This document shows positions 1 to 55,834 of a DNA stretch of 55,834 nucleotides, piece after piece. Below the pieces are notes generated by a model. That model did no database searches and was not told the origin of the DNA. It saw only the letters and a list, made by a program, of their open reading frames with translations. Numbering within the stretch: position 1 is the stretch's first letter; every line of letters begins with the position of its first letter. A program made the translations under genes and the position numbers. This DNA is from Candidatus Aquitaenariimonas noxiae (GTDB taxonomy: Bacteria; Omnitrophota; Gorgyraeia; Aquitaenariimonadales; Aquitaenariimonadaceae): NCBI GenBank assembly GCA_002780005.1, contig PEWV01000016.1:1-55834 (forward strand). The letters run 5' to 3'.

Positions 1-700
1 TAAACTTTTGCGAGATCCTGCGCATGTCCATTTCCCTTGAAATGCCGGAATCAAACATAAGAATAGAAAGATCTTCAGGGAAGCTGACTATTCCTTTAGG
101 AACCTCGGGCGAATTGCCCATAACTACGATCTCGCCTCTTTTACCGTAAGAAACTATCGCGTGGTCTGCGATGCCGCATGCCTGGCCGCAATATGTGCTT
201 TCGGCAAAACCATTATAGATGAGGTCGCTAAGCGGTTGATGCAGGCCGAATATTCTGTCTATAGCATAGTTTAAGCCCATTACAATAGATGACGATGAGG
301 AGAAGCCGGCTTTAGGCACATCACTTTCTCCTACATAAACACGCAGGCCTGAAAATTGCCTTTCCCCGAAATACTTCCCCTGGTAGAATGCGATTATTGC
401 GCGCGCGAACATATCCCAGTCGCGAGTCCGGTCTGTAGGAATATAGCCTGCCTCTTTCTGCTTTTGAGACCAGACATCCCATTCCAGAGGACTGTTTATC
501 TTCTCGGTGCCTTTTACCCCGTTGTCATTTATGCTGAAGTCTCTATGCTCGTATTCCGTATCGGCATTTTCCAATACAACTTTGTCATCGTTCGATCGCT
601 GAACAACCATGAATGTTTCCTCTTCAAGGGCCATGTTGACCGCGTCGACCATAAGCCCGGGCGCGTCAGGATGGCCGCCAAATACTCTCAATCTGCCCGT
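1..700 (-). other. GHMP-kinase (galactokinase-like) module at the visible C-terminal end of giant A
   Basis: Seen: an N-terminal substrate-loop-like motif GRLRVFGGHPDAPG (near 640-690), corresponding to the GRVNLIGEHTDYNGG type of sugar kinases. It is followed by the GHMP phosphate-binding motif KAGFSSSSSIVMGLN (near 270-315), and then FDSGISREMDMRRISQ at the edge, which resembles the D-(S/T)-G-(V/I) motif of galactokinase/fucokinase. Family knowledge: GHMP enzymes phosphorylate sugars or isoprenoid and amino-acid alcohols with ATP. The His-Pro-Asp substitution (GGHPDAPG for GEHTDYNG) makes the substrate uncertain. The module continues beyond the window. Confidence 0.75.
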
Positions 701-11257: not shown

Positions 11258-11567
11258 TCTCGCGCGCGTCGGCCTCAGTAATATCGTCATTATATAAATC
11301 AACAATCGCCGCAATAACTGTTTCCTGGTCTAAAGGATCGCTGACTTCGGTTTCGATATCGGCTATTACCGGACGAAGCAATTCGGCTATGGCTCTTCCG
11401 GCAGCTACAACTTCTCCCTCTGCAGGGCCGTGAAACTCAGGACTGGGCGCCAAGGTGCCGGAACGATTATTTAAAGGAATGTTTCCGTATGAGGTCTGCT
11501 GAAATGTGAAGGTAACGAGAATTAATACCGAAATTACCCGATAAAAAATTTTCCTTTTTGGTAACAT
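11223..11567 (-). CDS. Signal-peptide ORF, probably the frameshifted 5' end of giant A
   Basis: 114 codons. The N-terminus is a Sec signal peptide: basic MLPKRK, a hydrophobic core, then FTFQQTSYGN. It matches the start of giant B (AAFLFQQLSFAE). After about 80 further residues the frame stops at 11225-11223, inside a stretch where the frame of giant A is already open (from about 11329). A good Shine-Dalgarno (AAAGGAAAGG) lies 5-6 bases before this ATG, whereas giant A's own ATGs have none. I infer one gene interrupted by a one-base change (an extra base relative to the fused frame) somewhere in 11226-11329, from assembly error, mutation or, less likely, recoding. The alternative is a small exported protein coupled to giant A. 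Confidence 0.7.
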   Translation of the reverse strand: MLPKRKIFYRVISVLILVTFTFQQTSYGNIPLNNRSGTLAPSPEFHGPAEGEVVAAGRAIAELLRPVIADIETEVSDPLDQETVIAAIVDLYNDDITEADARENARFGRSTPNR

Positions 11568-23192: not shown

Positions 23193-23240
23193 ATCCTAAT
23201 CCCTAACTACTAGCTACTAACTACTATCTACTAATCACTA
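23193..23240. repeat. TAACTA-type short repeat tract
   Basis: About 40 bases of imperfect CTAACTACTAGCTACTAACTACTATCTACTAAT reiterations between the terminator hairpin and the DUF4954 stop. Related tracts occur at 35848-35876 and, shorter, at 22440-22460. Confidence 0.7.
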
Positions 23241-25145: not shown

Positions 25146-25914
25146 TATAATCCCCCTTAAGGTTACTCGCCGCGTCCTTATCAATTACGAAAGTCACGTT
25201 CTTGTGCTCTCTCAATAAGGATGCAGGAACTTTTTCGGTTATCGGACCTTCTAATGATTTTGCTATCGCATCTGCCTTAGAAGCCTTGTCGGCTATCAAC
25301 AAGATCTCTTTTGCTTCCATTATTGTTCCATTACCCGTGGTAAGCGCCTGGCGGGGAACATCGCTTGCGCTAGCAAAGAATCTCGCATTATCCTGGATGG
25401 TCTTCTCTGTAAGATCTACGACTCTCGTACGGGAAGCTTTGGGAGAACCCGGTTCGTTAAACGCGATGTGGCCGTTTCCGCCGATGCCTAAAAGCTGAAT
25501 ATCGATTCCGCCCGCCTTCTTAATAGCGTCTTCGTATGCCTTGCACTCTTTTGCAGCGTCTTTTGCCTTCCCGTTCAGAACGTGGGTATTCTCTTTCTTT
25601 ATATTGATATGGTTAAAGAGGTTATCGTTCATAAAATAACGATAGCTCTGGTCGTGGTCACTGCTTATTCCGAGATACTCATCGAGATTATAGGTTATGA
25701 CTTTTGAAAAATCCAACCCTTCCTCTTTGTGCATCCTTATTAATTCCTTATACATCTTTACAGGTGTTCCGCCTGTGGCTAACCCTAATACTATATTGGG
25801 TTTTTTGCGAATCCTATCAGCAAATATCCTCGCTGCCTCCTTTGACATTTCTTCGCTTGTCGCTCTAATGATCACTTTAACATTACTGTTTTTGGTTTTA
25901 ACTGCTGTTTTCAT
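25138..25914 (-). CDS. nagB: Glucosamine-6-phosphate deaminase
   Basis: 258 residues, the usual NagB length. Motifs: VLGLATGGTP (phosphate loop), YNLDEYLGI (with catalytic Asp), LLGIGGNGHIAFNEPGSP (signature with catalytic Asp/His/Glu region) and AREA-like helices. Converts glucosamine-6-P to fructose-6-P and ammonia in the cytoplasm, the reverse in effect of GlmS. AGGGGAGG lies 7-8 bases before the ATG. First gene of a two-gene operon with the DUF4954 protein. Its presence between the giant hexosamine-type proteins supports amino-sugar metabolism as a theme of this region. Confidence 0.95.
   Translation of the reverse strand: MKTAVKTKNSNVKVIIRATSEEMSKEAARIFADRIRKKPNIVLGLATGGTPVKMYKELIRMHKEEGLDFSKVITYNLDEYLGISSDHDQSYRYFMNDNLFNHINIKKENTHVLNGKAKDAAKECKAYEDAIKKAGGIDIQLLGIGGNGHIAFNEPGSPKASRTRVVDLTEKTIQDNARFFASASDVPRQALTTGNGTIMEAKEILLIADKASKADAIAKSLEGPITEKVPASLLREHKNVTFVIDKDAASNLKGDYSG
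25152..25158 (-). promoter_or_regulatory. Ribosome binding site deciding the GTG start of the DUF4954 gene
   Basis: AAGGGGG on the minus strand, 6 bases before GTG (25145-25143), within the last codons of nagB. Supports translational coupling of the two genes. Confidence 0.75.
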
Positions 25915-35834: not shown

Positions 35835-35847
35835 CTTTTCACCCCTG

Positions 35848-35876
35848 ACCCCTAACTATTAGCTACTAACTACTTA
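35848..35876. repeat. TAACTA-type short repeat tract
   Basis: CCTGACCCCTAACTATTAGCTACTAACTACTTAA between the 772- and 412-residue genes; same type as the tract at 23193-23240. Confidence 0.6.
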
Positions 35877-39075: not shown

Positions 39076-42000
39076 TTATGCGCTGATCTCGGTGCGCAAT
39101 TGTTCTTGTATACGCTGCCGCTCCTTCTCGAGCTCTCTATTATACCTCTGGCCTTCAACCGTATCTGGTTTGAATATCTGCCCCTTTGATTTATTTAGTT
39201 CTTCGGCAATATCCGGAGGTATCTGGCCGTCATGAGCTAATCGTTCTATTACCTTCTCATAGTATTCTTCTTGCTCAGGCAAGACACCAGTTATCATGCC
39301 TGTAATAAGGCCGACAAGTAATGCTCGTCCGCCTACAAAGTCTATAACTGTTTCTTGCGGAGGCGCAAGGATGTCGCGTATGATATCTTGCATTTGTTGT
39401 TCATTAAGAGCCGCGGGATTAATGGGGATGGGGCGGTCTTGGCACTTTTGCACAATCTCTCCGTGAATTATAATGTTACTACGGTCAAAAAGATCGCTGA
39501 TCCCCATTATATTAAGATATGTATATAAGTTCTCATCCTTTATCCTTGGATCTGTTATTACAAGGACGTCTCTTATCGGATCTGCCTCGCCTTCAAGCAT
39601 GCCCATCTGTATCCTACGGTTCATGATCCTTGCCTTAAGTCCGGGATTACTTTCTAGTAAAGCCGATGGAACAACCGCTATCTTCGGCTGGGTCGCGTCT
39701 AACCCTCTGGCCTGCGCGCTGAAAGCGTATGTCGCATAAGCCTCACATCCTGCCAAGGCGAGGGCATCGATGTTGGACATAGCGTACTCCGCATTGCTTG
39801 AAGTGATCTTTTTCTGCAGATTCCCATCGTTCATAATTTCTACGAGCGCTGTGCGGCTTAGATTGTCTAGCTTGCCTGTTATAAGCGCAGGATGGTCTTT
39901 TAAGAGCAGGCACAGATCAAGTTCGTCCAGGAGCGGGTCCAGGGCCTTTTCTATCGTAGCTACATCATTTGTATCTACCACTAATCCGACTTTCCCCTGG
40001 TCTCTTAGTCTTCTAACCATGTCTTCCTGCTTATCGCCCGTCTCAAAACGGACAATGCTTATATTTCTTCCTTCAAGCTTTTGTTTAATGAGCCCTTCTA
40101 TCTGGTCTGCGTTTTCAAAAGCAGGTATTCCTATAGTAATTACTCCTGCCTCGGCTAAAGTCGGCGCCGGAACAGGTGCTTCCGGCCTAATGGGCACAGT
40201 CCCGGGCTCAGGCTCAAAATCAATCGGGATAGTCTCAATAGCAAATTTCCCCGACTTCAGCATAACGGCTCTTGTCATAAAGTTCGAACCTGCCTCATCA
40301 ATATATGTGTCCTGCCCTTCAAGGGCCTTACGCCTTGAAATTACATCCCGCACCCCGTCTCTTGCCTTATCGGTAATATCGGTTAACGGCAGGCCGGCCG
40401 CATCCATCCTGCTCTTGATAGAACCTTCAAGATGATTCATATCAAAATATTCATATAAAAATCCCGTTACGATCCATGCCCCTGTGCCTTCAAGTAGATT
40501 AAACCTTACATTAGGATAGGCGCGGTAATAATTTTCTGTTCGCGTTCTTTCTATCCCGGCTATTTCTAAAGATCCTGTATCTTTGGCGACATAGATATCG
40601 CCTTTTTTGGACATAACGATCCGCAATCTTTCGCCACTCTTGCTCTGGTCCCGGGCAAATTGTAATATTGAATCCGTAGTCCACAGTGTAAATATTCTCT
40701 CCCTTCCTGTGCTTGGAACCAAATTGATATTGCGGTCCTGTATGAACTGCGCTACATCGGAATGACCAAGATCCACGACTTCTCCGCCGTCAATCGTAAA
40801 ACCTCCCAAAACTCTATCGCCGCTAAAGAGCCCTGTGAAGGCCGCTTCACCGGTTACATTTGCAAGCGGCATGGAGCCTTCGGGCGCTTGCGATATGAAA
40901 GGTACTTCTAAAAATCTTGGATTAAATCTGTCTCTTGCTATATTTAAATCGATATCATGCTGGGCGCCGTCGTCAATTAATAAAGCGGCTACGGCCTGGC
41001 GGGTTTGGCGTGAACCTGCATCAGATGCGGCCGCGATAGAACTAAGGATTCCTGCTGTCCGCGCCGAATATTTATCTTGATTAGGCCCGTTGGCCACCCT
41101 TAACGCTGCTTCATATACCATAACATCAAACCAGCTCAAATCAAATATGCTGTTTACAATGGCCGGCGTGAATAACGCAAGCTCCGGATATCTGACGGAT
41201 ACCTTTATAAACCCTGCGATCACAACAGCGTAAGCAAGATAAGCCCTGTTCCCTGGAGCACCCTGTCCTAAAATATCATAAGCATCCGCCACGTTGAAAG
41301 CTTCAACTTGTCTCGCCAGATTTTCAATTATAAGTTTTGCCGTTTCTTTACCCTGCGCCGTAGCAGCCAGGCTTGATATAAAGGTAAGGATACCTGTATA
41401 ATTCAACGTTATATTGTAATAGTTGGTCAATTCAGCACGAATGATCCCCTCTTCCATTCCCTGCCCTTGTAAATATGAAACTATCCCCTGAAGAGATCTG
41501 ACGACAGCAGACTGTAACTCAGGATCCTCAACACCGATACCGCCCATATCCGCGATCAAATTGTCAACTATACGGATTGTTTCGGCCTTTCTGTTTATAT
41601 ACCATCTAAGCCGTAAACCAAGTTTCCCGCCCTCATGATACTTTAAATCTTCATCTCTGTAGTTCTGTTCTTTGAACATTTTTTGTTGCAATTCGCGAAC
41701 GATTTGGTGGTCTTCCCCGCCGCGGCATATTACTTCGTGAACTATGTACTCTATAGCCTCGTTTGGAGTTAGATTAGCCAGTAATTCTCTGTCAAGATAA
41801 ACAGTATTACCTTCTCTTAACCCCAACATAAAATGATTCTGAGCTTTAACAACTCCGCCGGGCACTGTGTATAGGCTCATATTGCCGTCTCTTAAGGCAT
41901 TCAGATCGGTTATTGCCTGCGCTATCCTGTCGTTCTGCGGTTCTGCGCTAAGCGCAGTGATTGCTCTGTCGATCTCTGTCCTGTCAAAATTGGTCAGTGT

Positions 42001-45000
42001 ATATCCTTGCCTGTCAGCCTCGGAGGCTTTAAATTCCGTTTTAAGCGCTTCTTCGCTCTCTCCTGCCGGCACCTGCATGATCTCACCGTCGCTAGGCGCG
42101 GCTGGCGCAGTAGGCGCAACTTCTGCCTCTACGGGCAGGCTTTCTACTGCCCCCAGAAACTCTTCTGCAGTGCGGAATCTCGTAAACTCCTCATCGCTAG
42201 TATCAGCATAAGGAACTTCGCCCAGCGCTTTTGCGAAGAATCCCTTCCATTGCTCATTCAATATAATGCCGTCTGCCTCTAAATCGCTCAAAAATTTCTC
42301 AATGCCACCGACTTCGTATCTATCGTCAAACTGTTTTCCTGCCAGGGCGAGAATCATATGCGCTGCTAAAAGGAATATATCCGATGAGGGCGCCCAACCA
42401 CTCATTTGCCTTCTGACATCCCAAGGGCAGAGCTTGAATATGTCACCTGACTTAAACAAAGAACCATTGTCGTCATAATCATCCACTTGGACAAAATTCG
42501 TCGGCACCTGGTGCTCGGTTTCGGCGCTATTTATAAACCAAGCTCCTCCGAAATCATTTAAAATAACGCGGCCATTATCGCAGATCCAAATATTCTCGGG
42601 TTTGACGTCGGCTATGCACACACCCATCTCATGCAGGTGCCCCATGGTCCTGGCCACCTGAAAACCGATCTCCCTAACCTGCGCCATAGTAAAATGTTCG
42701 CCTCGCGACAGTCTTGTAAAGAGATCCGCCCCATCCGGGTTCGGCCGCATGCAGAGATATGCGCATCCGTCAGCCGGGTCGACCGCGGCCGGATACGCAC
42801 GCTCTGTGACTCCCAACCTTCCCCAATGCATGTAATAATCCAGCAGGATCCTTTCTTCTTTTTCTATTCTTCCGTTGTTCCTTTGGTCCTTGATCTTTTT
42901 GATAACGATATTCTCACTCGGCATGGTCGGGTTTTCCAGGAACAATATCCAGGCATCATCTATATCGCGCGTGCCCAATATATTGGCCAGCCTATAACCG
43001 TGGAATTGCGGCTGCTCCATAAAAGACCTGATGGAGGGACTGATATCAAGGAGCTCATGGTGAGTCGTTCGCGGCGTGGCCGCAAGAGGCGCCGATCCGC
43101 CTCGAACAATAGGTTCCTGAGCAAGCGACGCAGTTGTTTCCGGCGTAGCTTCCCGATAACCACGGAGAAAACCTGCTACGGCCTTATCTGCTGTTCGGGG
43201 TGCGAGGCCCAGGGTGTCACGAATCATGCGCTCAAACCCCACGAGGTCTCTATCTATCTGCATCTGTCTTGTAAGAGGACTTGCACGGTCAAAGTCAAAC
43301 AAAGTGACTTTTCTTTCTTCCAGATTGACTACTACATGCGACGCTCCGATATCATAAATCCCTATGCCTACCGCATAATGGTAGAAAGCTACTTCCTTGC
43401 CCAGATCAGTCCATATCCACTCGTTCTCCGGGCGCTCGCGCTCTTCGGCAGACATACTTCTGCCTTCTCCTTGCTCGAGCGCAAATCCCTTTAATATTTT
43501 TCCGGGAATTTCAGCGACCAAAAGGACCTGATACGTCTCTTCGCCATGTTGTTGTGTCGTCACGACCTTTCGCGGAGCCTTGTAGGCAGGATAGCAATCA
43601 GGCCTCAGCGCTTTGGCTCTTCCTATAATGTCTATCTCGGAATTGTGCCCCCAGGCGGTAAGCGCGACCGATTCCCCGAATTGCGGAAACTTTGCGTAGA
43701 CCCTGGCTTCGCCGGCATCGGTTGTAACGGTAAAACGGCCTGTCCTTATATATGGCTCCTCTGACTCGACATCCCGTTCGGTCCATTCTGTGTCGTGGGT
43801 TATGTTCAATATGCGGTGTGCGCCGGGTAGCGTCGACCGTATAATACTGTTTTCGCTGTCAAGGTCGCCTAGCAGAGCTTCTGCGACACACGAAGAAATC
43901 CATCCCGGCTGCCATTGTTCCGCTTGCTCAAGGATATGTTGACGCACATCCGGTGCTACTGATGGTCCTGCTAGCGCTGCGGGTGCTGTTGGTGCCGGTG
44001 CTGTAGGCGGCGTTGTCGACGGTGGTGTTGCCGGCGGTGGTGTTGCAGGAGGAGTTCCTTCTATAGCCTTCAACTCCTCTCCTGTTCTAGCGACTAATTC
44101 AGCACGGACCGCTTCAGCCTGGTTCCTGGGGCAGTTAGCTGTCAGGTATACCCTTATTCTTATGGGTTCTGTACCTGACTGGCGGAAACTTACCCAACCT
44201 GCGCGCCTCCCATCTTTATATAAGTGGACATAAAGTTCATTTGGTGTTACATATCCATCAGCCGACTTAGCAACTACAAATTGGTCAGCTACCTGGACAA
44301 AATCTTCTTGTTGGGTAGCCATGTCACCGAAACCTTCCTGTATAATTTTCATCAGGTCGTGATAGTATGGATTCTGTTCCGGACTCTTTGCCCTGCTTGT
44401 CTCGTTCAATCTTGAAATTAATTCGCTGCCTTGTTCTGGGGTCGTGGCTGTCAAATCTGCGTGCGGCCCAAGGTAAGGATATGCCCTGCTGATTTTGACT
44501 GTAGTAAGTTCTGAAAGTTTTTGATGTTTATTCAGTGTGCGGCTAAAAAGGAAAAGAGCTGTTACTATACCGTCGCCTGTAGTCTGATAATCTGAAAGAA
44601 TAGTGTGACCGCTCTGCTCGCCCCCTACCACGTAACCGTGTTTTTCCATTTTCTCAACGACGAAGCGATCGCCTACCCTGGTAAGCTTTACGTTAATACC
44701 CGCATCTTCCATGGCAGCGACAAGGCCCATAGTCGCCATTATTGTAGCTACAACCGAATTACCTTTTAGCCTGGATTCTCCGTGTTCGTCTACTTCTTCT
44801 TTCAGGCACAACGCTATCGCTCCGAGGCTTCCGTCTCCGTCTATCTCAATCCCGTCCTCATCTACGAACATTATTCTGTCACCATCTCCGTCAAAACCCA
44901 TTCCTCCCATTACATCTTTATCCTGATCCCTTAATTCTATTATCTTAGCGCTAAGGCGCGCCGTGCTCTGGGAACCGCTCTTCGCGGGGTTTCCTTTTTG

Positions 45001-48000
45001 GTCAACAGAACCGTCATCCTGGGCATTTATCATGCTTCCTCTTGGCGCATTATCCAGTTGGCCGTCTATAGAGGTGTTGATTTCTACCACTGTCGCGCCC
45101 AAATCCCTGAACATTCTTGGTGCGAGTCTACTTGTCACGCCGTTGGCCGAGTCTATTACTATTGTTTTCCCTTCAAACGGCATCGCTTGCCCGCCCATCT
45201 CTTGCCTGAAACGTTCTAGGAAGTGATCTACATACGCTTGACCGGCTTCTGTCATTTCATTTATAGCTCCGCCGGCTACTATTCCCGGAATTGCAATGCC
45301 TTGAGATATCATATAGGTATTCTGTTCCAGCTCTACTGTTTTGGCATCTGGGATCTTTTTACCCGCAATAAATCCTTTTATTCCGTTCTCTTTCCATCCA
45401 AGATGAGAACCTGTGACCGTAATACCTATAAATCTTTTAGCGTTTGATTCATACGCAAGCACAGGCGTTGGGATAGGCTCTCTTACAATATATACTGTTC
45501 CGCCTTGGGATACTATCCCTTCTGCTAATTTTTCAATTAACTCTATCGTTGAAGGACGGTTGTCTCCGCCGAGCATGAACGGTGTTTCTCTTCCGAATGT
45601 TCTGACATAGGCCTGGCCGTGATAGAATGCCTGTTCATGTGTCATGAGGCCGTATCTTATTAACAATTCCGAATCGCCCGGTTCCTCTGGCCCAATTTTA
45701 CCTTCCCGAACAGGCCCCGCCATTACGTTTCTGCGACCTATGGCTTCTGCGGGTGTTAAGATTTTTCCTCTCATACCATCTGTGCCGACCATTTTGCCTT
45801 TGATCACACCTAACCTGGTATTTATTTCAGGACCAAATACTTGCGCAGGGTTAACCCATTTACCGTTATTCATCTTCCATCGGCCGGATTCCAGATTGCG
45901 AGTATAAATCTCAAGGCCTCTTTCCAGCTGAGCTAAACGGCCCTCTAATTTTGTCCTGTTAGCGTCGGAAAGCTCTCCGGCAAGCTGACCTCTTATAATA
46001 TCTATTTCCCGCTGTACAAGCTGAATACCAAGCCTTAAAGAACCTTCAACTAACTTATCCGCTCTATTTTTTTCTCCCGCAGGCAATAAGTCCACTATTC
46101 TTTCGACCATTAGCCTGACGCTTTCTGGTTCCTCGTCAAAAACCGCTCCTATCCTGTGTTGCCTAGGACTTAATGTATTGGCTATGGTCCCGGGGAGCAC
46201 TATACCCCAGACCTCTTCTGACACGTGAGAGAACGGCATGAAAACCGTAACCCCGGTTTGCTCTGGGAGGTCAAGCATACTTATATCCGGATGATCGTAT
46301 AGATTTATTACATTTGTATCCGGGTCTATGATCGCGGCAAAGGCAAAAGCTGTCCCCTTTAAGCTGGCGCCGTCAGGGCCGAGTTCCCCGCCGTAATTAG
46401 CGAAAATCGTTCTGCCGGATATAGTTATAGGATTAGCCAGCTCGGTTAAAACAGAGCGGTTGCCCTGCTCATCTACTATCACATAGCCATCAGGAGCAAT
46501 AACGCTCGCATAAACCTGTCTCGAATCATCTGTGACGCCCGCGCCAAACCAGCTCTTGCTAACTTCGCTTGATATTAGGCAGTGGTCAGCTGTAACGCTC
46601 TTCTCGACATTTGCGCCGGGCAATAATTCATTATGCGCCCCTATCTTACTGTGAGTTATCTGGCTTCTCTCGGCAACGGTCATATCTCCTATCTCAGAGT
46701 TAATTAACAATACGTCGGTAAGCTTAACTCCTTTTCCGATAACAGCCCTGGCTATTTTTACATTAAACCTGCGCAGCGAGGCGTGAGGCTCTGTCGCGGC
46801 TGTAGTCTTTTCTACAAACTTCCATCCTTCAACGGTGTCAGTCGTTATAACGATCGAGTCTTTTATAACTGTATTATCTCCGACTGTGGAATCTATTATT
46901 GTGCTAGCGCTTATATTGCAACCTGCCCCTATTATCGTACCTGCAAAAAGAAGTACATTGGCGCCGATAATTGTACCCTCGCCTATCTCGGCCGTTTCAT
47001 CGACAACTGTGCTGGAAGGATCAGTAAATTCTACACCCGGCCATTTTTGCTTAACGTACTCAGTTCCTTTCTCGTCTGTGATCTGCGCGATCGTGGGCAA
47101 TACAGGAGGTAATTCTAGGGCCGCTTCGGCCTCCGGCTCAGCTTGAGCCTTTGGCGCAGCCGGTTTTACTATTTCTTCGCCGGGTACCTGCCATTCAGGA
47201 TTGTTAAGCGCTGCCAAGTAAACAGCTTTTCCTCGCTCTAATTCCTGTCTTGTATATATTGAAGCGCCGCCTTCATCTCTGGGGCCCTTTGTTAATTCTT
47301 TTCTGATCATGGCAAGTCCTAAACCTATCGAGCCTTGTATTAGTCTATATATATCGTTTTTTCGGCCTTCAGGTAATAATTTCTGTGTTTTATTTATAAA
47401 ATTCATTAAGATACCGGGTTTACCTCCGCTAGCCTCGTCCAAAAGTATAAAACCTATTCTATGTTGAAGCCCTGCTTCCGTCCCCTGAACAAGACTGAAA
47501 GGCATGACTTCACTAATGTCGGAGCCGCTTATTCTGCCCTTTACAAATCCGGCAAAATGAATAGTTACATCCCCTTCTATTGTACTGTTTATTGCCGTAA
47601 AGGCCGTACGTAAAGAGGCGCGACCTTTAATAGTAGTCCCTCCGCCGATATTTGTCAGATTCGGAATATTTTCGAAGACACCTTCTTCGCCCAAAACAAC
47701 CTTTTCAATCTTCCCTTCTGCATCCCTTTCAATTAAAGAAAACGATACAACAGGATAGGAGTTTGGGAAATTTGCACCTTCTATTACAGCGCTATAATGC
47801 TCGGAGACAACTCCATCGCCTACTTTAGCATCTTTAATCCTGCTGCCTATCGTAACATTATTACCGATTTCCGAGTCATACACTTCAGCGGCAAACCTAA
47901 GGGTGCAATTATCACCTACCGTACTATTTCTTAATTCTCCTCCTATAGCTGTAGCAAACTTGCCTATCTTAGAATTCTGGACTTCCATCATTGTAAGCTC

Positions 48001-51000
48001 TGACCCAAGCCCTACAGAGGAATTTATTATTGCCGAATATTGAACAAATACGCCGTCATCCAGGGTTGAATTTTCTATTCTCACAGTATTCAATTGACAG
48101 TCGCTGCCTATAACACTTTCACCTACGATCTCTACTCCGGCATAAATTATATTTCTTTCGCCTATGCCACACTTCCCTCTAATCTTTACTCCGGGATAAA
48201 CTACAGTTCCTTTGCCTATAACACTTTCACCTCTGATCTCTACTCCTGTATGAATTACAGCTCCTTCGCCTATTTTTACTGTGGGATCTATATTAAGCCT
48301 AGCGCCTAATGGGTCGAGGAATGTCACCCCGGGATAACGTTTTTCCAGTTCCATTCGGGCGTGTTCCTTCATAACAGATTCAATAACCCCTAGCCACGGC
48401 GCCATTTCTCTTTTTATGTCTTCTGCATTCCTGCCGGCTAAGTATTGTCTTATTGTTACCTCGTCATATACCCCTTCTCTCTTTGCGTAGTCTATAGCTT
48501 CTGAAATGAGAATTCCCCTATTAACATAGGAATGTGATTGTCTTATTTTTTCAGCAATTTCTGGATGTTCTGCCGATATTAAAGCAATTATTTCTTCTTT
48601 TCTTGGGGCAGTTAAACTTCCCAGTAATAATCTATAGAATTCCTGGTCGTCAAAATCATTATCACCGGCTAAGGTTATTAGATACGCAGCTTGTCTGGCT
48701 GGCGGGAGCGCTTGGAAGGCATCTATTTTGGCAATGTCCAAAATTATTTCTTCGATAGCCGGAGGAGCCTGGTCAATAACCCCTGCTTTCACAAGCTTCC
48801 TTAATAACATATGCCATAACTCTTCTTCTATCTCTTTCGCGATCAAATCGCTGGAATAAGTCGCTAATAAATCAACGTCTATGTATATCGTATTATCTCC
48901 GACATGGGCCAGGTGCTCGTTGCCAGCGTAGAATTCGACCTGCAGAAGCTCGCCGGCGAGCTCCGGGAAGTTCGCTATTGTATCGGCTATTACGGCCCGC
49001 GCCGCCCTTGCCCTGCTTAAAACCGTTGCCTGGTCAAGATAAGGATACATCTGACGCAAGCGAGCTACGATCCCGCTCTCAAGGCCTGTCTCGGTCCCGA
49101 GTATTATATCAGTTACTTCAACCCTGCTCATAAGTTCGGGGGTTACGCCGGCTTCTCTTTTCATTTTGATACCTGTGGTTCGGGTCTCTTCTTCTTCAGG
49201 TTCTGGCCGCGGGACCATTGGCCCCCCAAACATCATCCTATAGACCTCACCGCCGGCCCTACTAGCGCCGGCAATAAATTCTCCTATCCTCAAAAAAGGT
49301 CTCCATAAAAGTGCCCTTAAAATAATATCTATATTAAGGATTACAGGAACTCCTATTAATACCAATAGAGTTGCTTTAATCCACCCCCATAAAGAATGGG
49401 GTAAGATCCATAACCACGCGGCTTTCAAAGCGGCTCCTAAAGATATGAATGCTGTTTTAACCCAAGCTGCGCCAATAAGTTTCACTAAGAAGCCTGCCGT
49501 AGCCGCTGCAGTAGCCGGATGTATCAGTAATATACCTAATACAGCCCCTATTAGCAGCAGGCACCCCACTCCTCTTACTATTCTGTTATTGTTATTAAAC
49601 AAGCCTGCGGATGCTGTGGCGTATATAGTGATAAGGCCCACAAGGAATGGCAACCCTTTCCAAAGCGCTTTCAAGATAGCAGCTCCTGCATTATATAAAA
49701 ATCCGACTATATGAGGCCAGTTTCTGGCTGTATCTGACACTCTTTGTAAGGAATCTAAATTGGATAGTTGGTCGCCCATAGGCGACAATAAGTAAAACGT
49801 TATCATGAAAGCCAGTACCACTGTAGCGAAAAATGCGACAGCTATTATCCTGTTTGTTGCCTTGCGATCTGCGGCGTTACGCAGATTATATCTTACTTCA
49901 ATGAATATCCTCATAAGCGATCCTAACATAATTAAAAATGATAGCGCTTTATAAATAAGGGCAAGCGGAGGAAGCAGACCAAGCCCAGCTATTGCCATTA
50001 TCGTAGCTGCAGCTGTTATAATTGTAGCGACTGCAGAGAAGGCTCTTAACCTTGGCGAACTTGTGCCTAACATATATAAAGATCCAACCACTAATCCGGC
50101 TACTAAAGCCATAAACGCGGCAGGTATTAAAAGCAAGCCAAAATGGCTCAAGGCAGACCATGTGAAGAAGAATACGAATATAGGATTTAGCACTACAACT
50201 TGCCTTACCCTCACCTGCTTCATAGCGGTCTCTCTGTCCGCAGCTATAACAATACCCCGCCTTTTGAGCGCCTCTTCTGCGCTACTCACTGCACGAGGAG
50301 GAGATATAACAGTAGCTGCCAAGTAACGATACGGACGTAGTATAAAATGATAAACTACCCACATGCCTCCCGGAAGGAATATTTCTCTTGATACATATCC
50401 GGCAGAACGATAGAATGATGTAATAAAGGTAAGCCCGGCTGTTAATTTAATAAAACCTGCCAGGAATCCTCCTACATAAGGAATAGATATTGGAAATCCC
50501 CATATTTTTACAAAAGGAACGGCTACAATTGCAAAAGTAACTTTCATGACAAACAAGATCCCTGCTACTGCTTGCATTACCATCCCGCTTGCAACAGCAA
50601 GGCCTAACTTGCCTAATATGATTCCAACTACCCAACAGCCAAGGGCGCCAAAAGAACCCACTATAATCACAATCCCGACTATCGCAAAAGTCGCGCCCAC
50701 GATGAATTTTCCTGGTTGAGAGAACAAGTCGATTAAGTTAAAATAAAGCGTAAGAGGCCAATGAATGGCTCTTCCGAAAGCATACAAAGCGCCGCTAACC
50801 GCTCCCTGAAGCCGTGGAGACGCTCTAAAAATAGCTCTTGTTAGCCATGACCATGTAGGCCTTAAAAACCCGCGCCTTGTTTGTACAGGCGCAGGCGGTT
50901 GCGCTACAGTCGGAGCGCCTTCTTCGGGGGCAGCAGCTTCCTCGAGGGCAATTTCCGCAGCGCCTTCTTCGGGGGCAGCGGCTTCTTCATACAGTGACAT

Positions 51001-54000
51001 TTGCGCTGCGGCTTCGGGTGTAAACATTATTATGCGCACATCTAAAATCTCAAACTCTTTTTGGAAATCTCTCCAAAATTTATTAACAGCAGGGGTACGT
51101 TGCCAAGTATTATAAAAAGGCCTGAGATTTCTCGTAATAAATTCTGATAGCTGAACGCCTCTAACGTTATGCGTGATTGAGGTTATTAATTCTCGCGCCC
51201 TACGTTCGACATCCGGATTAGCAGCCCGCAATAACCGCAACGCGGCTTGGTCTTCATTATGAATAGCGACCGCAGCAGCAACGACTTCGGCTTCAGGATA
51301 TTCCCTGGCAAATGAGAAAACGATCATAGGATCGAGAGGCCAATTCTGGCCTGTCCCGTCTACATTAGCTTGCCTTGCAGCTACCAGCCTTATGAGATCA
51401 TGCATAGGGCCAAAGGAAGGTATATTCTCTGCCAAATTTCTCCAAACCATACCCATTCTATAAGCCCTGCCCAGCCCCGGGACAAACCCGCTTACAATGT
51501 CACCATACATCCTCTGCAAAGTATTTGCGAAGAATAAATAATTCACCCAGCCTGACGCTGAGTCTGTGCCCATTGCACATTCGTCACCCCAGGCTTGAAC
51601 TGACTGCAGGGCTAATACATCGCGGTATAAAGATGCAAACGAAGTGGCTACGGGAGCGGCCTGTAATACAGCTATTGCCTGCCTGGCTTCATCCTTCACC
51701 GCTGTTGAGCGGTCATCGTTAACAACCCTTTCGAGCGCTGGAATCGCTGCCGGATCTCCGAGGCTGACGATCTTCCTAATGACTCTTATTCTATTTGCCA
51801 AACGCGGGATAACTCTCGGATCAAGCGTGTCTAGCAGGCCTTGAAGCTCAGCGCTTGGAATCGCAGGCCTTACAGCCCTATTCCTATTGAGTATAGCCGC
51901 ATCCGGTGAAGTCCCCATACCTGCAAGAGTCTGTTCTATTCCCCTTGTAACCAGCATGTTCGCGAATGCCCTTGTTACGGAATTTGTATTTCTATGGAGT
52001 TTCTCAAAAGCCATCCTGAACATTACTTTCCTGTTCAATGAGGAACCCGGCACAACAGGATCAGCTTCAGGCGATGCGCCGATATACAAGCCTATAAAAG
52101 TATCTTCTACTAACTGGCCAAAACCTCTGCTCATATATGATTCGAGCGTTTTATTCAATCCTGACATTGGAGATGCCAAAGGCGACATACCTGCGTATAA
52201 ACGTATAGTAGTCAAAGGAAGTTTTTCGCCAGGCACTGTCAATTGAGTAGGAACAAGAGGGCGAGGCACTAGCGGAATTCTCATTAAAAGTTTACCCGGA
52301 GCTATAGGCAGCGGGCCGACAGATGTCCAGTATTGGATAGTATCATAGAAACCAAATCTCTGTAATAACGGAACAGGACTAAAGAGATAGCACATGGTTT
52401 TCATATCATCACTCAATAAATTAAAGCTCTGCCGTTCCACATCTTGCAGCAACGCAAAAATGAGGAAAGGAAGCACTGTAGCCGCGCCTGTTGTTGTTGT
52501 TGTAGTTGCAATCACTCCGTCTTCGTCGACTGTTACAGCGTGCCTATCCCGCACAGCTTCTTCTAAGTCAGCTTCCGTGATGGGTGTAATTTCTGTTTCT
52601 TCGCCTGCCTGCATGGAATACATTACGTTTATCATCGCAACCCATGCCGCTCTATCTTCGGGTTTCATATCTGTGAAGCTGTCGACAAAACCGTTCCATG
52701 CTATCAGAAGCGCATCAGAAATAGCATTAGGATTCATAAATTCTACATGCCCTGTCTCGATAGCAGTAGAGCTTAAATTTATACGCTCTAATATATCTCT
52801 AGGCGTTAGTATAATTCCCATATTTCTGTATAAACCTACTGGAGTTATATCTTGCCCTCTGGTAGCCCTGAGTAATGCTTGTCTGCCGCCGGCTTCTCGC
52901 TCGGCAGCGGCAATTCTGTTTTCAAGAAATGCCCTGTATTGCGCGTGCGGGCTTGCCGGATCTGCACCTGGTGAAGAAATAGCGTCAAGAAAAGTGTCTA
53001 TATCATTACCAAAATGATCAAACAGGTCGTTCATATTAAGATCGTTACAGGCTCTTGCCATATCGTGCAGCGGCTCAATAACCTCGGCTTGCAACTCGGC
53101 TCCGTATGTCCTGCTGAAAGTTGGCTGTTCGGTAGGTTGCGGCCCTCTGATCGTTTCTGCTGCGCGGTGCGCTAAAATCGTCCCTCTGCCTTGGTCAGGC
53201 GCTTCACCGCCTATTGCCTCGTTTCCTTTTAGCATTTCATTCAAGGTATCAGTAGAGGGTTCTATGTATGTGTTTGCGATAAGCCAGTCGGAATAGGCCC
53301 GCTGATGTGCCTGCACAAGGGGATTGAAACCGGAATGTCTTTTGACATAATAGTCATATGGGTCTACCCTACATGAATGATAAACCGGCACCTTCGGAGC
53401 ACTCTTCCTGAAATCCGGCCTATCCTCATCCCTATCAAATATTCCGCTGTATGTTTTTATTCTAAAATTTAAACCCGCTGAGAACGGGAATCTATTCCTT
53501 AGCAAAACAAGCATATGCTCAAAAGTGTTTTGGCCTGTGTGTAAACCTTTAAATCTTGGGTCCTGCACAGAAACTGTAAGTAGTATATTTCTATCACCGA
53601 TTACCGGCATCCTGGAAACACCGCTGTCATCGGCTGTATACATATAAATCTCATCTAAAAGTATTCCGCTTTCGCTGCATAGATCAATTAACGCTTGGAA
53701 CATATCAGCAAACATGTCATTTTCGCTTGTCCGGCCTTCAACCTCCATCATTTGATCGACGATTCTTCCCGGCGGCAATCTCCCGCTTGATATATCAAAA
53801 TCTCCCCAAATCCAACTTCGTAAAAATCTAAAAGAGCCGGAGAAAAGGCCTATCAAACCTCTCCAACCGCTTCCGAAGTGAGCAGATGAGCCGCCCAATA
53901 TCTCCCTTGCGCCAAGCCTCCAACCGCTAATCCTGTTTTCTGTTCTCTCTCCAAAAGGAAGTTCGGGAGGGCCTATGTGCCACACCCGCCTGCTGCCTGT

Positions 54001-55834
54001 GCCATGATAGGCCAATCTTGCAACCCTATGGCCTACTGCTAAATCCCTGGCTGCTATTCTATAGACTATTTCTGCTAATCTCTTATTTAGCCTTTCGTTG
54101 TAAGCTTCCACTTTTTCGTTTTCTTTCCTATTTAACTCTGTCCTCTCTTTGTAAGCTTTGTCGCTTTCGCCTTCTCTTCTAGGGAGCTTCGACTGCCTTC
54201 TTTCCCTATCAAGTTGCCTTCTCGCCTCACGCTCAACTTCTCTAGGGTCATACAGCGCAAAAATCATTTGAATTATAAACAATTTCATATATGCCCAAAT
54301 ACTTACAAAGAGCGGACCGAATATCCTTGATGAGTAAATCTCCCTGAAAGATGGAATCGTATAGAAACCAAGCCGAATTCCGGGTATACTCGCAAGAGGC
54401 TTTCCATCCACGCCCGTAACTTTGTAGAGAGGAGATTGTTCGTACAGATTCCGAACTGCATCCCTAGCCTCCCTATCCAGTTCTTCATATGAAAGCAATT
54501 CTGAGGGCAATCTTTCAGGAGCAACAATTTCATTTATGTTTCTTTGCTGGATGTTGGTTTGAACATAATACTCATCTAACACTTCGTTTGTCTCTTCATC
54601 TTTCACTAAACGATACGTGCAGCCAAACAGGCTGGGCACTATATTATTTCCTGCTGTGCCGTTACCGAATTCCCTATAAAGGAATTCGTCAAAAGGCCTT
54701 ACGTCCGCAGGGTCTATGTAAGCCCTGAAAAATCTGTAGGCTGTGGCAAGAAGTGTGGATAGGCCTTGCTCAAACTCGATCTTACCTTGCAAGAGCGCGT
54801 TACCTGAAGTTAGGTCACCGGCTGCAGGTTGGCCATAAGAAGAAAACACATTCACTGCAATTTGCCCGAACCTATCTAATTCTGCAAATGGCCTCTGGAC
54901 ATTTGCGAAGTGACTTAATACCCTTGATAATTCGCGCTGCGCCGCAGGTACGGCTATATGGCCCAACAAAGCCGGGTTAATCCCCTGGATCTGAGTCACT
55001 ATGTTGATATTCGGATCTGCTGATACAATGACATCATTTGCGGTAAAGTTTGCGTTTCTTGCTAAATACTCATAAAGCTCGCTATCACTTTGTATTCTGT
55101 CTAAGGCGCATTCGGCTCTTAAACGAGCTAACGCATCCTCAGTTAAACAGACAGGCGCTAAACCAGAGCTAAATTCCGACTCTCTAGTTACTTCTCCTAT
55201 TCTATTTGCCGCATCTTGAGCTTGTATCCTTTCATCAAATCGCAAGCCGTGCAGCAGCAGAATTTCGTGCGGCACCACTATTATAGTGGCATCAACGTCA
55301 GGCAATGTAATTGGATCCATGCGTATTCTTGTTCTTGGAACGGTTTTTGTTGTTCCCACTTGTTTTCCGTCTTTGTCATACTCTACAAGTTTTTTATGAA
55401 CTACGCCGTCTTTATCTTTATATTCTACCCTTTCGAGTATAACGCCTTTATCATCATATTCTACAGCTGCGGGACGCCCATCAGTCGGCGCAGGTATTGT
55501 TGTAGCCATAAAGGCATGGGTATCGCCGAATAAAAGTTGCAATACGGCGTTTATTGACTGAACTTTTGTCTGGCCCATCGGTTCATACTCTATTGCCCAT
55601 AAATAATCTCCTATAATAATATTCATAACAGGCCCAGGGGCGCCGCATAACAGGCCGAATGTATCCCTGCTTCCTATTGCAAGCGACCCTTCCTCTCTTA
55701 TATTCCCCAGGCATATGACCCTTCTAATAATAGACGAAGAGCCTTCGGGAGAATACGTCTGCTGCTCAGGAAGTTCGCTTCCGTAGAATGCTCGAAGCGG
55801 CCCAGGCATTCTTCCTGCATTTTCGGTGGCTGTC
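39076..55834 (-). CDS. Giant C: membrane-anchored mosaic with GlmU-LbH x2, GlmM, kinase-like modules (5' end outside window)
   Basis: One open minus-strand frame to the right edge. The ATG at 55809 gives 5,577 residues, but upstream codons (TATENAGR) are open too, so the gene starts outside the window and no signal peptide is seen. Numbering from that ATG: 1-1650 mostly unrecognised, with one membrane segment near 490-510, a charged coil near 515-570 and HEAT-like repeats near 1335-1395; 1650-2160 a block of about 12-14 membrane segments; 2300 a YID module; 2485-3320 two tandem GlmU-type LbH plus helical units; 3330-3920 GlmM-like; PT-rich linker; 3960-4200 APH-like; 4260-4560 protein-kinase-like; 4665-4705 a degenerate HExxH module; then an alpha/beta C-terminus. 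The modules suggest envelope amino-sugar chemistry; no single function assigned. Confidence 0.9.
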   Translation of the reverse strand, partial: TATENAGRMPGPLRAFYGSELPEQQTYSPEGSSSIIRRVICLGNIREEGSLAIGSRDTFGLLCGAPGPVMNIIIGDYLWAIEYEPMGQTKVQSINAVLQLLFGDTHAFMATTIPAPTDGRPAAVEYDDKGVILERVEYKDKDGVVHKKLVEYDKDGKQVGTTKTVPRTRIRMDPITLPDVDATIIVVPHEILLLHGLRFDERIQAQDAANRIGEVTRESEFSSGLAPVCLTEDALARLRAECALDRIQSDSELYEYLARNANFTANDVIVSADPNINIVTQIQGINPALLGHIAVPAAQRELSRVLSHFANVQRPFAELDRFGQIAVNVFSSYGQPAAGDLTSGNALLQGKIEFEQGLSTLLATAYRFFRAYIDPADVRPFDEFLYREFGNGTAGNNIVPSLFGCTYRLVKDEETNEVLDEYYVQTNIQQRNINEIVAPERLPSELLSYEELDREARDAVRNLYEQSPLYKVTGVDGKPLASIPGIRLGFYTIPSFREIYSSRIFGPLFVSIWAYMKLFIIQMIFALYDPREVEREARRQLDRERRQSKLPRREGESDKAYKERTELNRKENEKVEAYNERLNKRLAEIVYRIAARDLAVGHRVARLAYHGTGSRRVWHIGPPELPFGERTENRISGWRLGAREILGGSSAHFGSGWRGLIGLFSGSFRFLRSWIWGDFDISSGRLPPGRIVDQMMEVEGRTSENDMFADMFQALIDLCSESGILLDEIYMYTADDSGVSRMPVIGDRNILLTVSVQDPRFKGLHTGQNTFEHMLVLLRNRFPFSAGLNFRIKTYSGIFDRDEDRPDFRKSAPKVPVYHSCRVDPYDYYVKRHSGFNPLVQAHQRAYSDWLIANTYIEPSTDTLNEMLKGNEAIGGEAPDQGRGTILAHRAAETIRGPQPTEQPTFSRTYGAELQAEVIEPLHDMARACNDLNMNDLFDHFGNDIDTFLDAISSPGADPASPHAQYRAFLENRIAAAEREAGGRQALLRATRGQDITPVGLYRNMGIILTPRDILERINLSSTAIETGHVEFMNPNAISDALLIAWNGFVDSFTDMKPEDRAAWVAMINVMYSMQAGEETEITPITEADLEEAVRDRHAVTVDEDGVIATTTTTTGAATVLPFLIFALLQDVERQSFNLLSDDMKTMCYLFSPVPLLQRFGFYDTIQYWTSVGPLPIAPGKLLMRIPLVPRPLVPTQLTVPGEKLPLTTIRLYAGMSPLASPMSGLNKTLESYMSRGFGQLVEDTFIGLYIGASPEADPVVPGSSLNRKVMFRMAFEKLHRNTNSVTRAFANMLVTRGIEQTLAGMGTSPDAAILNRNRAVRPAIPSAELQGLLDTLDPRVIPRLANRIRVIRKIVSLGDPAAIPALERVVNDDRSTAVKDEARQAIAVLQAAPVATSFASLYRDVLALQSVQAWGDECAMGTDSASGWVNYLFFANTLQRMYGDIVSGFVPGLGRAYRMGMVWRNLAENIPSFGPMHDLIRLVAARQANVDGTGQNWPLDPMIVFSFAREYPEAEVVAAAVAIHNEDQAALRLLRAANPDVERRARELITSITHNVRGVQLSEFITRNLRPFYNTWQRTPAVNKFWRDFQKEFEILDVRIIMFTPEAAAQMSLYEEAAAPEEGAAEIALEEAAAPEEGAPTVAQPPAPVQTRRGFLRPTWSWLTRAIFRASPRLQGAVSGALYAFGRAIHWPLTLYFNLIDLFSQPGKFIVGATFAIVGIVIIVGSFGALGCWVVGIILGKLGLAVASGMVMQAVAGILFVMKVTFAIVAVPFVKIWGFPISIPYVGGFLAGFIKLTAGLTFITSFYRSAGYVSREIFLPGGMWVVYHFILRPYRYLAATVISPPRAVSSAEEALKRRGIVIAADRETAMKQVRVRQVVVLNPIFVFFFTWSALSHFGLLLIPAAFMALVAGLVVGSLYMLGTSSPRLRAFSAVATIITAAATIMAIAGLGLLPPLALIYKALSFLIMLGSLMRIFIEVRYNLRNAADRKATNRIIAVAFFATVVLAFMITFYLLSPMGDQLSNLDSLQRVSDTARNWPHIVGFLYNAGAAILKALWKGLPFLVGLITIYATASAGLFNNNNRIVRGVGCLLLIGAVLGILLIHPATAAATAGFLVKLIGAAWVKTAFISLGAALKAAWLWILPHSLWGWIKATLLVLIGVPVILNIDIILRALLWRPFLRIGEFIAGASRAGGEVYRMMFGGPMVPRPEPEEEETRTTGIKMKREAGVTPELMSRVEVTDIILGTETGLESGIVARLRQMYPYLDQATVLSRARAARAVIADTIANFPELAGELLQVEFYAGNEHLAHVGDNTIYIDVDLLATYSSDLIAKEIEEELWHMLLRKLVKAGVIDQAPPAIEEIILDIAKIDAFQALPPARQAAYLITLAGDNDFDDQEFYRLLLGSLTAPRKEEIIALISAEHPEIAEKIRQSHSYVNRGILISEAIDYAKREGVYDEVTIRQYLAGRNAEDIKREMAPWLGVIESVMKEHARMELEKRYPGVTFLDPLGARLNIDPTVKIGEGAVIHTGVEIRGESVIGKGTVVYPGVKIRGKCGIGERNIIYAGVEIVGESVIGSDCQLNTVRIENSTLDDGVFVQYSAIINSSVGLGSELTMMEVQNSKIGKFATAIGGELRNSTVGDNCTLRFAAEVYDSEIGNNVTIGSRIKDAKVGDGVVSEHYSAVIEGANFPNSYPVVSFSLIERDAEGKIEKVVLGEEGVFENIPNLTNIGGGTTIKGRASLRTAFTAINSTIEGDVTIHFAGFVKGRISGSDISEVMPFSLVQGTEAGLQHRIGFILLDEASGGKPGILMNFINKTQKLLPEGRKNDIYRLIQGSIGLGLAMIRKELTKGPRDEGGASIYTRQELERGKAVYLAALNNPEWQVPGEEIVKPAAPKAQAEPEAEAALELPPVLPTIAQITDEKGTEYVKQKWPGVEFTDPSSTVVDETAEIGEGTIIGANVLLFAGTIIGAGCNISASTIIDSTVGDNTVIKDSIVITTDTVEGWKFVEKTTAATEPHASLRRFNVKIARAVIGKGVKLTDVLLINSEIGDMTVAERSQITHSKIGAHNELLPGANVEKSVTADHCLISSEVSKSWFGAGVTDDSRQVYASVIAPDGYVIVDEQGNRSVLTELANPITISGRTIFANYGGELGPDGASLKGTAFAFAAIIDPDTNVINLYDHPDISMLDLPEQTGVTVFMPFSHVSEEVWGIVLPGTIANTLSPRQHRIGAVFDEEPESVRLMVERIVDLLPAGEKNRADKLVEGSLRLGIQLVQREIDIIRGQLAGELSDANRTKLEGRLAQLERGLEIYTRNLESGRWKMNNGKWVNPAQVFGPEINTRLGVIKGKMVGTDGMRGKILTPAEAIGRRNVMAGPVREGKIGPEEPGDSELLIRYGLMTHEQAFYHGQAYVRTFGRETPFMLGGDNRPSTIELIEKLAEGIVSQGGTVYIVREPIPTPVLAYESNAKRFIGITVTGSHLGWKENGIKGFIAGKKIPDAKTVELEQNTYMISQGIAIPGIVAGGAINEMTEAGQAYVDHFLERFRQEMGGQAMPFEGKTIVIDSANGVTSRLAPRMFRDLGATVVEINTSIDGQLDNAPRGSMINAQDDGSVDQKGNPAKSGSQSTARLSAKIIELRDQDKDVMGGMGFDGDGDRIMFVDEDGIEIDGDGSLGAIALCLKEEVDEHGESRLKGNSVVATIMATMGLVAAMEDAGINVKLTRVGDRFVVEKMEKHGYVVGGEQSGHTILSDYQTTGDGIVTALFLFSRTLNKHQKLSELTTVKISRAYPYLGPHADLTATTPEQGSELISRLNETSRAKSPEQNPYYHDLMKIIQEGFGDMATQQEDFVQVADQFVVAKSADGYVTPNELYVHLYKDGRRAGWVSFRQSGTEPIRIRVYLTANCPRNQAEAVRAELVARTGEELKAIEGTPPATPPPATPPSTTPPTAPAPTAPAALAGPSVAPDVRQHILEQAEQWQPGWISSCVAEALLGDLDSENSIIRSTLPGAHRILNITHDTEWTERDVESEEPYIRTGRFTVTTDAGEARVYAKFPQFGESVALTAWGHNSEIDIIGRAKALRPDCYPAYKAPRKVVTTQQHGEETYQVLLVAEIPGKILKGFALEQGEGRSMSAEERERPENEWIWTDLGKEVAFYHYAVGIGIYDIGASHVVVNLEERKVTLFDFDRASPLTRQMQIDRDLVGFERMIRDTLGLAPRTADKAVAGFLRGYREATPETTASLAQEPIVRGGSAPLAATPRTTHHELLDISPSIRSFMEQPQFHGYRLANILGTRDIDDAWILFLENPTMPSENIVIKKIKDQRNNGRIEKEERILLDYYMHWGRLGVTERAYPAAVDPADGCAYLCMRPNPDGADLFTRLSRGEHFTMAQVREIGFQVARTMGHLHEMGVCIADVKPENIWICDNGRVILNDFGGAWFINSAETEHQVPTNFVQVDDYDDNGSLFKSGDIFKLCPWDVRRQMSGWAPSSDIFLLAAHMILALAGKQFDDRYEVGGIEKFLSDLEADGIILNEQWKGFFAKALGEVPYADTSDEEFTRFRTAEEFLGAVESLPVEAEVAPTAPAAPSDGEIMQVPAGESEEALKTEFKASEADRQGYTLTNFDRTEIDRAITALSAEPQNDRIAQAITDLNALRDGNMSLYTVPGGVVKAQNHFMLGLREGNTVYLDRELLANLTPNEAIEYIVHEVICRGGEDHQIVRELQQKMFKEQNYRDEDLKYHEGGKLGLRLRWYINRKAETIRIVDNLIADMGGIGVEDPELQSAVVRSLQGIVSYLQGQGMEEGIIRAELTNYYNITLNYTGILTFISSLAATAQGKETAKLIIENLARQVEAFNVADAYDILGQGAPGNRAYLAYAVVIAGFIKVSVRYPELALFTPAIVNSIFDLSWFDVMVYEAALRVANGPNQDKYSARTAGILSSIAAASDAGSRQTRQAVAALLIDDGAQHDIDLNIARDRFNPRFLEVPFISQAPEGSMPLANVTGEAAFTGLFSGDRVLGGFTIDGGEVVDLGHSDVAQFIQDRNINLVPSTGRERIFTLWTTDSILQFARDQSKSGERLRIVMSKKGDIYVAKDTGSLEIAGIERTRTENYYRAYPNVRFNLLEGTGAWIVTGFLYEYFDMNHLEGSIKSRMDAAGLPLTDITDKARDGVRDVISRRKALEGQDTYIDEAGSNFMTRAVMLKSGKFAIETIPIDFEPEPGTVPIRPEAPVPAPTLAEAGVITIGIPAFENADQIEGLIKQKLEGRNISIVRFETGDKQEDMVRRLRDQGKVGLVVDTNDVATIEKALDPLLDELDLCLLLKDHPALITGKLDNLSRTALVEIMNDGNLQKKITSSNAEYAMSNIDALALAGCEAYATYAFSAQARGLDATQPKIAVVPSALLESNPGLKARIMNRRIQMGMLEGEADPIRDVLVITDPRIKDENLYTYLNIMGISDLFDRSNIIIHGEIVQKCQDRPIPINPAALNEQQMQDIIRDILAPPQETVIDFVGGRALLVGLITGMITGVLPEQEEYYEKVIERLAHDGQIPPDIAEELNKSKGQIFKPDTVEGQRYNRELEKERQRIQEQLRTEISA
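42140..43030 (-). other. Protein-kinase-like domain of giant C
   Basis: Seen: NIVIKKIKDQ (VAIK lysine), KEERILLDYY (helix C), VCIADVKPENIWICDN (catalytic loop: His and Arg of HRD lost, Asp, Lys and Asn kept), ILNDFGGAWF (DFG intact) and APSSDIFLLAAHMILALAGK (APE..SD region). The Gly-rich loop is unclear. Could be active with an atypical HRD, or a pseudokinase. Confidence 0.75.
43200..43950 (-). other. Aminoglycoside-phosphotransferase/kinase-like domain of giant C (degenerate)
   Basis: After the PT-rich linker: ARVYAKFPQFGESVAL, YQVLLVAEIPGKIL, GIGIYDIGASHVVVNLEERK and VTLFDFDRASPL. The last two resemble the HGDLHxxN...DFD loops of APH/fructosamine-kinase folds, with HGD replaced. Probably a kinase fold without normal catalysis. 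Confidence 0.4.
44060..45815 (-). other. GlmM-like phosphoglucosamine mutase module of giant C
   Basis: Seen: MVGTDGMRGK (canonical FGTDGVRG), ITVTGSHLGWKENGIKGF (active-Ser loop; canonical ISASHNPxxDNGIKFF, Ser kept, NP lost), MGFDGDGDRIMFVDEDG (metal loop), VVGGEQSGHTI (sugar loop of the GlmM type, EQ rather than EM or EE) and FRQSGTEPIRIRVY (phosphate loop). Converts GlcN-6-P to GlcN-1-P if active. About 585 residues against the usual 450; insertions add the difference. Confidence 0.88.
45850..47050 (-). other. GlmU-type beta-helix plus helical unit, copy 2
   Basis: WPGVEFTDPSSTVVDETAEI, then GEGTIIGANVLLFAGTIIG and further hexapeptide coils. These are followed by a helical tail (HRIGAVFDEEPES, LLPAGEKNRADKLVEGSLRL) and ending IYTRNLESGRWKMNNGKW. 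Same plan as copy 1. Confidence 0.75.
47190..48350 (-). other. GlmU-type beta-helix plus helical unit, copy 1
   Basis: YPGVTFLDPLGARLNIDPTV matches the start of the GlmU acetyltransferase half (GVTxIDPxxxxIDxxV). Coils with [LIV]-G-X4 hexapeptides follow, then HRIGFILLDEAS, a helical tail (LLPEGRKNDIYRLIQGSIGL) and YLAALNNPEWQVPG. No GlmU uridylyltransferase half (GGxGTRM) seen. Confidence 0.8.
48106..48266 (-). repeat. Three 54-bp tandem units in the first beta-helix
   Basis: GCCTATAACACTTTCACCT starts at 48106 and 48214, with GCCTATGCCACACTTCCCT at 48160: spacing 54 bases, i.e. 18 residues, one full beta-helix turn. DNA-level similarity shows recent coil duplication. Confidence 0.75.
49300..50880 (-). 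other. Multi-spanning membrane block of giant C
   Basis: Residues about 1650-2160 contain roughly 12-14 hydrophobic segments, e.g. FIVGATFAIVGIVIIVGSFG, AVAFFATVVLAFMITFYLL and GVGCLLLIGAVLGILLIHPA, separated by short loops. It splits the protein, so the two flanks lie on the same or opposite sides depending on parity. No transporter signature recognised. Confidence 0.8.

Follow-up and report, generated by a model that had tools for sequence, protein, structure and literature searches.

Giant open reading frames (ORFs) of over 20 kb have been described from the Omnitrophota (PMC10066038), and most of the giant proteins already known from this phylum lack recognisable domains. According to PMC10066038 and PMC12057145 (citing West-Roberts 2023), the reported giants agree with the proteins presented here in phylum, size and exported or membrane character; these texts mention adhesins, modules related to carbohydrates and a small number of annotated domains, whereas the giants presented here carry sugar-phosphate enzymes of metabolism that retain most of their catalytic residues. 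The literature searched, the scope of which excluded bioRxiv preprints, yielded no account of hexosamine enzymes in giants of the Omnitrophota. Described counterparts of the individual modules are bacterial GlmM (TIGR01455; structures 6gyz, 3pdk and 7ojr), GlmS (TIGR01135) and the acetyltransferase domain of GlmU, a left-handed beta-helix. Here we present a description of a giant mosaic protein, giant C, together with giants A and B of the same contig. The mosaics are best read as very large, mostly Sec-exported proteins assembled from divergent versions of enzymes that act on sugar phosphates and nucleotide sugars, and several of them are readable as chains of central-metabolism enzymes.

The window, i.e., the whole stretch of DNA analysed (55,834 bp), is identical with contig C66 of a draft genome of 1.93 Mb (81 contigs, 97% complete). 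Gene style, giant ORFs and published descriptions suggest a member of the Omnitrophota. The relatives used for comparison (labelled G) belong to the same class as the source genome, none of them to its own family. The three giants, their modules and the ChaN-like, DUF4954 and NagB genes lie on the reverse (-) strand. Giant C (39076-55809) is an ORF of 5,577 aa (5,585 aa to the contig edge) that is cut by the contig end, so that its true N-terminus is unseen. It is stop-free over 16.7 kb and shows coding-type G+C at the three codon positions along its full length; compared with the 20 kb of reported giant ORFs, 16.7 kb are visible of a frame that the contig end truncates. Parts of the N-terminal region (50890..55809, aa 1-1640) resemble a giant fragment of G029 (aa 989-1188, 30% identity); this fragment of 1,352 aa was the only match when 147 relatives were searched with the N-terminal region, and no close orthologue of giant C was found among them. 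Parts of the C-terminal module (39457..40149, aa 5221-5451) are also found in giants of G061, G007 and G046.

The first-pass annotation had described giant C as one mosaic chain of a membrane block, beta-helix units, a GlmM with four recognisable catalytic loops and kinase-like domains, and this outline was confirmed: the ORF is real and all of these parts are present. The membrane block (49312..50712, aa 1700-2166) is a cluster of about 10-12 hydrophobic segments, located by hydropathy only. Both of its flanks are rich in K/R, a positive charge that would put the two of them on the cytosolic side. The kinase-like domains are two in number, a Kdo/APH-like kinase-fold region (43090..44037, aa 3925-4240), which is weak and below cut-off, and a Ser/Thr-kinase-like domain (42130..42957, aa 4285-4560), in which IKK, ADVKPEN and DFG are present and the Pkinase profile matches at about aa 4350-4440 with an E-value of 1.1e-11.

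The GlmM-type phosphohexomutase module of giant C (44095..45798, aa 3338-3905) matches the PGM_PMM domains I-IV at about aa 3388-3906 (domain I, E 7e-14; domain III, E 1.6e-26), with domains I, III and IV above and domain II below the cut-off. The TIGR01455 glmM model scored 225.7 bits, which does not reach the equivalog cut-off of 447.55 bits. All four catalytic loops were found. The metal loop (DGDGDR), the sugar loop (GGEQSGH, fitting GGExSGH) and the phosphate loop (RQSGTE, fitting RxSGTE) are complete, whereas the serine loop is altered to TGSHLG in place of SASHNP, with Ser-His kept, Ala replaced by Gly and the invariant Asn replaced by Leu. The module retains 55 of the 65 near-invariant columns (at least 95% invariant across 119 GlmMs), and 31/47, 28/66 and 27/94 of the less conserved columns, a drop with conservation that corresponds to the pattern of a constrained enzyme. 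An AF2 model built from 34 sequences reached a pLDDT of 80.7 and a pTM of 0.84, and the top Foldseek matches of this model in the PDB were all GlmM structures. The four-domain fold, the metal, sugar and phosphate loops and Ser-His are thus common to bacterial GlmM and the giant C module, but the latter scores half the equivalog cut-off, has SHL for SHN, contains insertions and is located inside a 5.6-kaa membrane chain. These features show a GlmM-like module that appears to be under active-site constraint, i.e., a putative enzyme. Its nearest relative is the product of a free-standing gene in G027 (35% identity, 60/65 columns retained), which immediately follows a beta-helix gene; the G027 pair shares module order and mutase subtype with giant C but consists of two separate genes of ordinary size. 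In a class-wide search this subtype was detected in G000 and G027 only, and a wider contig scan, which may omit near relatives of the window, yielded ordinary bacterial GlmMs.

Regarding the beta-helix part, two left-handed beta-helix units (unit 1, 47110..48372, aa 2480-2900; unit 2, 45805..47094, aa 2906-3335) are tandem duplicates with 26% identity over 431 aa (E 1e-19). In profile searches both match Hexapep, LbH and GlmU models, the GlmU models aligning to giant C by their C-terminal part only. The structure model of unit 1 (LbH1) was confident only within the beta-helix core and was too uncertain for a fold search. Like the GlmU acetyltransferase domain, the units form a left-handed beta-helix with GlmU-like hexapeptides; in contrast to GlmU, they possess an additional C-terminal helical part common to both, alignment revealed no counterpart of E. 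coli GlmU His363, Tyr366, Asn377 and Asn386, and GlmU profile models detected no uridyltransferase domain in front of the units. The units had been termed 'GlmU acetyltransferase-type'. Their number and fold stand, but a GlmU identity fails because the catalytic His, the ligands and the uridyltransferase are absent, and a role as GlmU acetyltransferases, including the implied activity, was accordingly rejected.

Giant B (11612..20668, 3,018 aa) has a signal peptide-like N-terminus and combines a GlmS with a glutamine synthetase. The glutaminase of the GlmS is split; one part of it (19322..20149, aa 174-449) starts with an internal Cys174 that aligns to Cys1, and two SIS domains (17630..18811, aa 620-1013) represent the isomerase. 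Of the GlmS residues inspected, 15/15 are kept: Cys1, Arg26, Arg73, Trp74, Asn98, Gly99, Asp123, Ser347, Gln348, Ser349, Thr352, Glu481, Lys485, Glu488 and His504, among which Cys1, Glu488 and His504 are GlmS catalytic residues (PMC9272926). Regarding Lys603, a catalytic residue of the C-terminal tail, two alignments place different giant B lysines at this position. Invariant columns are kept at 92/146 (63%), compared with 38/114 (33%), 29/99 (29%) and 26/135 (19%) elsewhere, whereas the score of 216.4 bits does not reach the equivalog cut-off of 418.05 bits. Giant B thus keeps glutaminase and isomerase residues of GlmS but differs from it by the position of Cys1 at 174, by large insertions, by the signal peptide ahead and by the glutamine synthetase in the same chain. 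Because the Cys1 equivalent is internal, glutaminase activity would require cleavage. The glutamine synthetase module (12953..14626, aa 2015-2572) has retained E129, E131, E212, E220, H269, R321, R339, R344, E357 and R359 among its metal and substrate residues. Of the positions inspected in the metal, glutamate and ATP sites, K352 alone is changed, to Pro; D50/S53 were not placed by the alignment, and a DGSS motif is present upstream.

Both a stand-alone GlmU (contig C56, 446 bits) and an Arch_GlmM-type mutase (contig C24, 505 bits) are encoded elsewhere in the source genome, each above cut-off; the first-pass annotation had named such genes as one half of what would speak against its proposal. 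The GlmM name of the C24 mutase rests on the model score. This mutase may serve phosphorolysis, because it is placed after a gene that we take to be GH94-like, an arrangement also found in G061, the mutase of which is 52% identical in a matching gene setting. A stand-alone glutamine synthetase is located on contig C14. A stand-alone GlmS was not found by profile search of the source genome (draft, 97% complete); among the 147 relatives, 127 yielded a GlmS match above cut-off.

GlmS-like segments within frames of 2,634-3,838 aa occur in 6/16 relatives (G016, G048, G061, G073, G094 and G029) picked because no GlmS passed the cut-off. If the source genome is included, GlmS-like giants were found in 7/17 genomes without stand-alone GlmS versus 2/22 genomes with it (G018 and G022); the one-sided Fisher p of 0.024 is uncorrected for phylogeny, with 4/7 positives from one family. 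Some of the stand-alone GlmS absences may be assembly gaps. The internal Cys1 is aligned in four giants (B and those of G016, G061 and G073), and in the aligned parts of the relatives' GlmS giants most residues at Cys1, Arg26, Arg73-Trp74 and the sugar-phosphate loop are conserved, apart from some substitutions.

Synteny around the GlmS-like giants of relatives (NagB, DUF4954, HAD, ChaN-like) is partly conserved; in G061 the HAD, DUF4954, NagB, ChaN-like, HD and carbohydrate genes stand in the same order as in the window. The DUF4954/GlmU-like beta-helix protein (23238..25184) and NagB (25138..25914) are 64% and 78% identical to the products of the syntenic G061 genes, respectively. The exported protein encoded at 20673..22271 (532 aa, no Pfam match) is presumably ChaN-like; its homologue in G061 is fused on as the N-terminus of the GlmS giant, which contains two beta-helix units in the same chain. 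A mutase segment is found in a giant of the same G061 cluster, and another in a G048 giant adjoining the GlmS giant, and from these arrangements the modules appear to move between neighbouring giants. The stretch 31228-38188 is a series of carbohydrate-related genes for exported products with internal domains that repeat, and G061 has kept this series as well. Giant A (2..11567; giant frame from 11314) runs off the contig and contains UDPG_MGDP_dh and GHMP-kinase segments. A signal-peptide ORF (11226-11567) overlaps its start in another phase, so that an indel or a break of the frame is suspected near 11,270. A module of 37% identity is shared by giant A (aa 3262-3468) and giant B (aa 2618-2803).

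Signal peptides were called by a rule of hydropathy and charge, not by SignalP. Signal peptide-like starts were recorded for 11/14 giants of relatives, for giant B and for the ORF at 11567 before giant A. None of the control ORFs passed the rule (0/135 GlmM, 0/19 GlmS), whereas 14/46 smaller ORFs on the same contigs did. Since the N-terminus of giant C is missing, its export is predicted from its neighbours. Many giants of relatives show ALRP or a similar LR (LRP-like) motif directly after the signal peptide.

Judged from these sequences, giant C may be part of a locus of exported mosaics that is conserved in the Omnitrophota, and the sugar-phosphate modules of these mosaics would be enzymatically active in the envelope or extracellularly; we propose this tentatively. 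The glutamine synthetase of giant B would feed its own GlmS module, the internal cysteine of which would be freed by cleavage, and the GlmS would form glucosamine-6-phosphate, from which the mutase of giant C would produce glucosamine-1-phosphate. For the beta-helix units, a structural role or a non-canonical acyltransferase function is conceivable, the kinase-like domains might target sugars or the chain, and the membrane block would anchor giant C. Outside the cytoplasm, little ATP, glutamine or hexose phosphate is to be expected, so that catalysis there would call for an unusual setting. Against export and enzymatic function stand the K/R-rich flanks of the membrane block, which would indicate cytosolic placement, the change from SHN to SHL and the unreliable alignment of Lys603. 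It is improbable, although conceivable, that in several Omnitrophota families the first amino-sugar step is no longer carried out by a stand-alone GlmS but by an exported chain of several thousand residues (here accompanied by a glutamine synthetase of its own), that internal cleavage frees the catalytic cysteine and that a mutase in an adjacent giant takes over the product, which would make an extra-cytoplasmic pathway. The combination of most active-site residues being kept despite strong divergence with export signals is the surprise. If active, the modules would represent primary amino-sugar chemistry of unexpected location and format; if inactive, they would be an unusually well-preserved reuse of enzyme folds as building blocks.

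The latter case, in which folds are recycled in surface or adhesive giants that at most bind ligands and catalyse nothing, is rather unlikely but deserves weight. It agrees with the SHL of the GlmM, with beta-helix units devoid of catalytic residues and with the literature, which takes Omnitrophota giants for coats or adhesins (PMC10066038). Mutase modules of several other giants, which are much weaker and without recognisable loops, point in the same direction; loop patterns in other giants are mixed, with all four loops in those of G010 and G004 and partial or no loops in others. This is opposed by the GlmM, GlmS and GlnA catalytic residues, which are kept far above the background of diverged modules, and, in several lineages, by an internal Cys1 and sugar-phosphate loops that have been retained. 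The first-pass annotation had instead seen most of the UDP-GlcNAc route in the window and suggested a possible membrane-bound hexosamine assembly line, which would be cytosolic and formed by giants B and C with NagB. Giant B does contain a GlmS and a glutamine synthetase, NagB and a DUF4954 beta-helix gene lie between giants B and C, and GlnA, GlmS and GlmM modules in neighbouring giants, the lack of a detected stand-alone GlmS and the K/R-rich flanks would suit such a line. However, neither a uridyltransferase nor the acetyltransferase residues are present, stand-alone GlmU and a GlmM-type mutase occur elsewhere in the genome, and signal peptide-like starts are found on B, before A and on most giants of relatives; because the last two steps are missing and the export signals conflict with it, the assembly line is unsupported and we regard it as doubtful. 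Export signals would equally suit metabolic effectors that act on or in a prey or host cell, where ATP and hexose phosphates are available, as would the host-associated traits reported for the phylum and the raised giant-protein peptides in attached V. archaeovorus cells (PMC10066038); but the conserved linkage is to carbohydrate genes and nothing ties the source genome to a prey, which makes effectors quite unlikely. That assembly or binning errors joined unrelated genes is suggested by the draft state in 81 contigs and the probable frame break in giant A, but is very improbable, since 16.7 kb are stop-free with coding-type composition and independent genomes show giants and a gene order of the same kind.

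Other giants with sugar-phosphate modules were encountered among the relatives. L049 (G010:C49) is a further mosaic of this kind, the 3,860 aa of which include complete phosphoglucomutase domains as well as starch-synthase-like ones. In the one-contig genome G023, a mutase segment (L207, C1, at about 1.18 Mb) belongs to an open frame that extends over 45,379 aa, which is longer than the 39,678 aa reported for V. archaeovorus (PMC10066038) and shorter than the 85,800 aa cited in PMC12057145.
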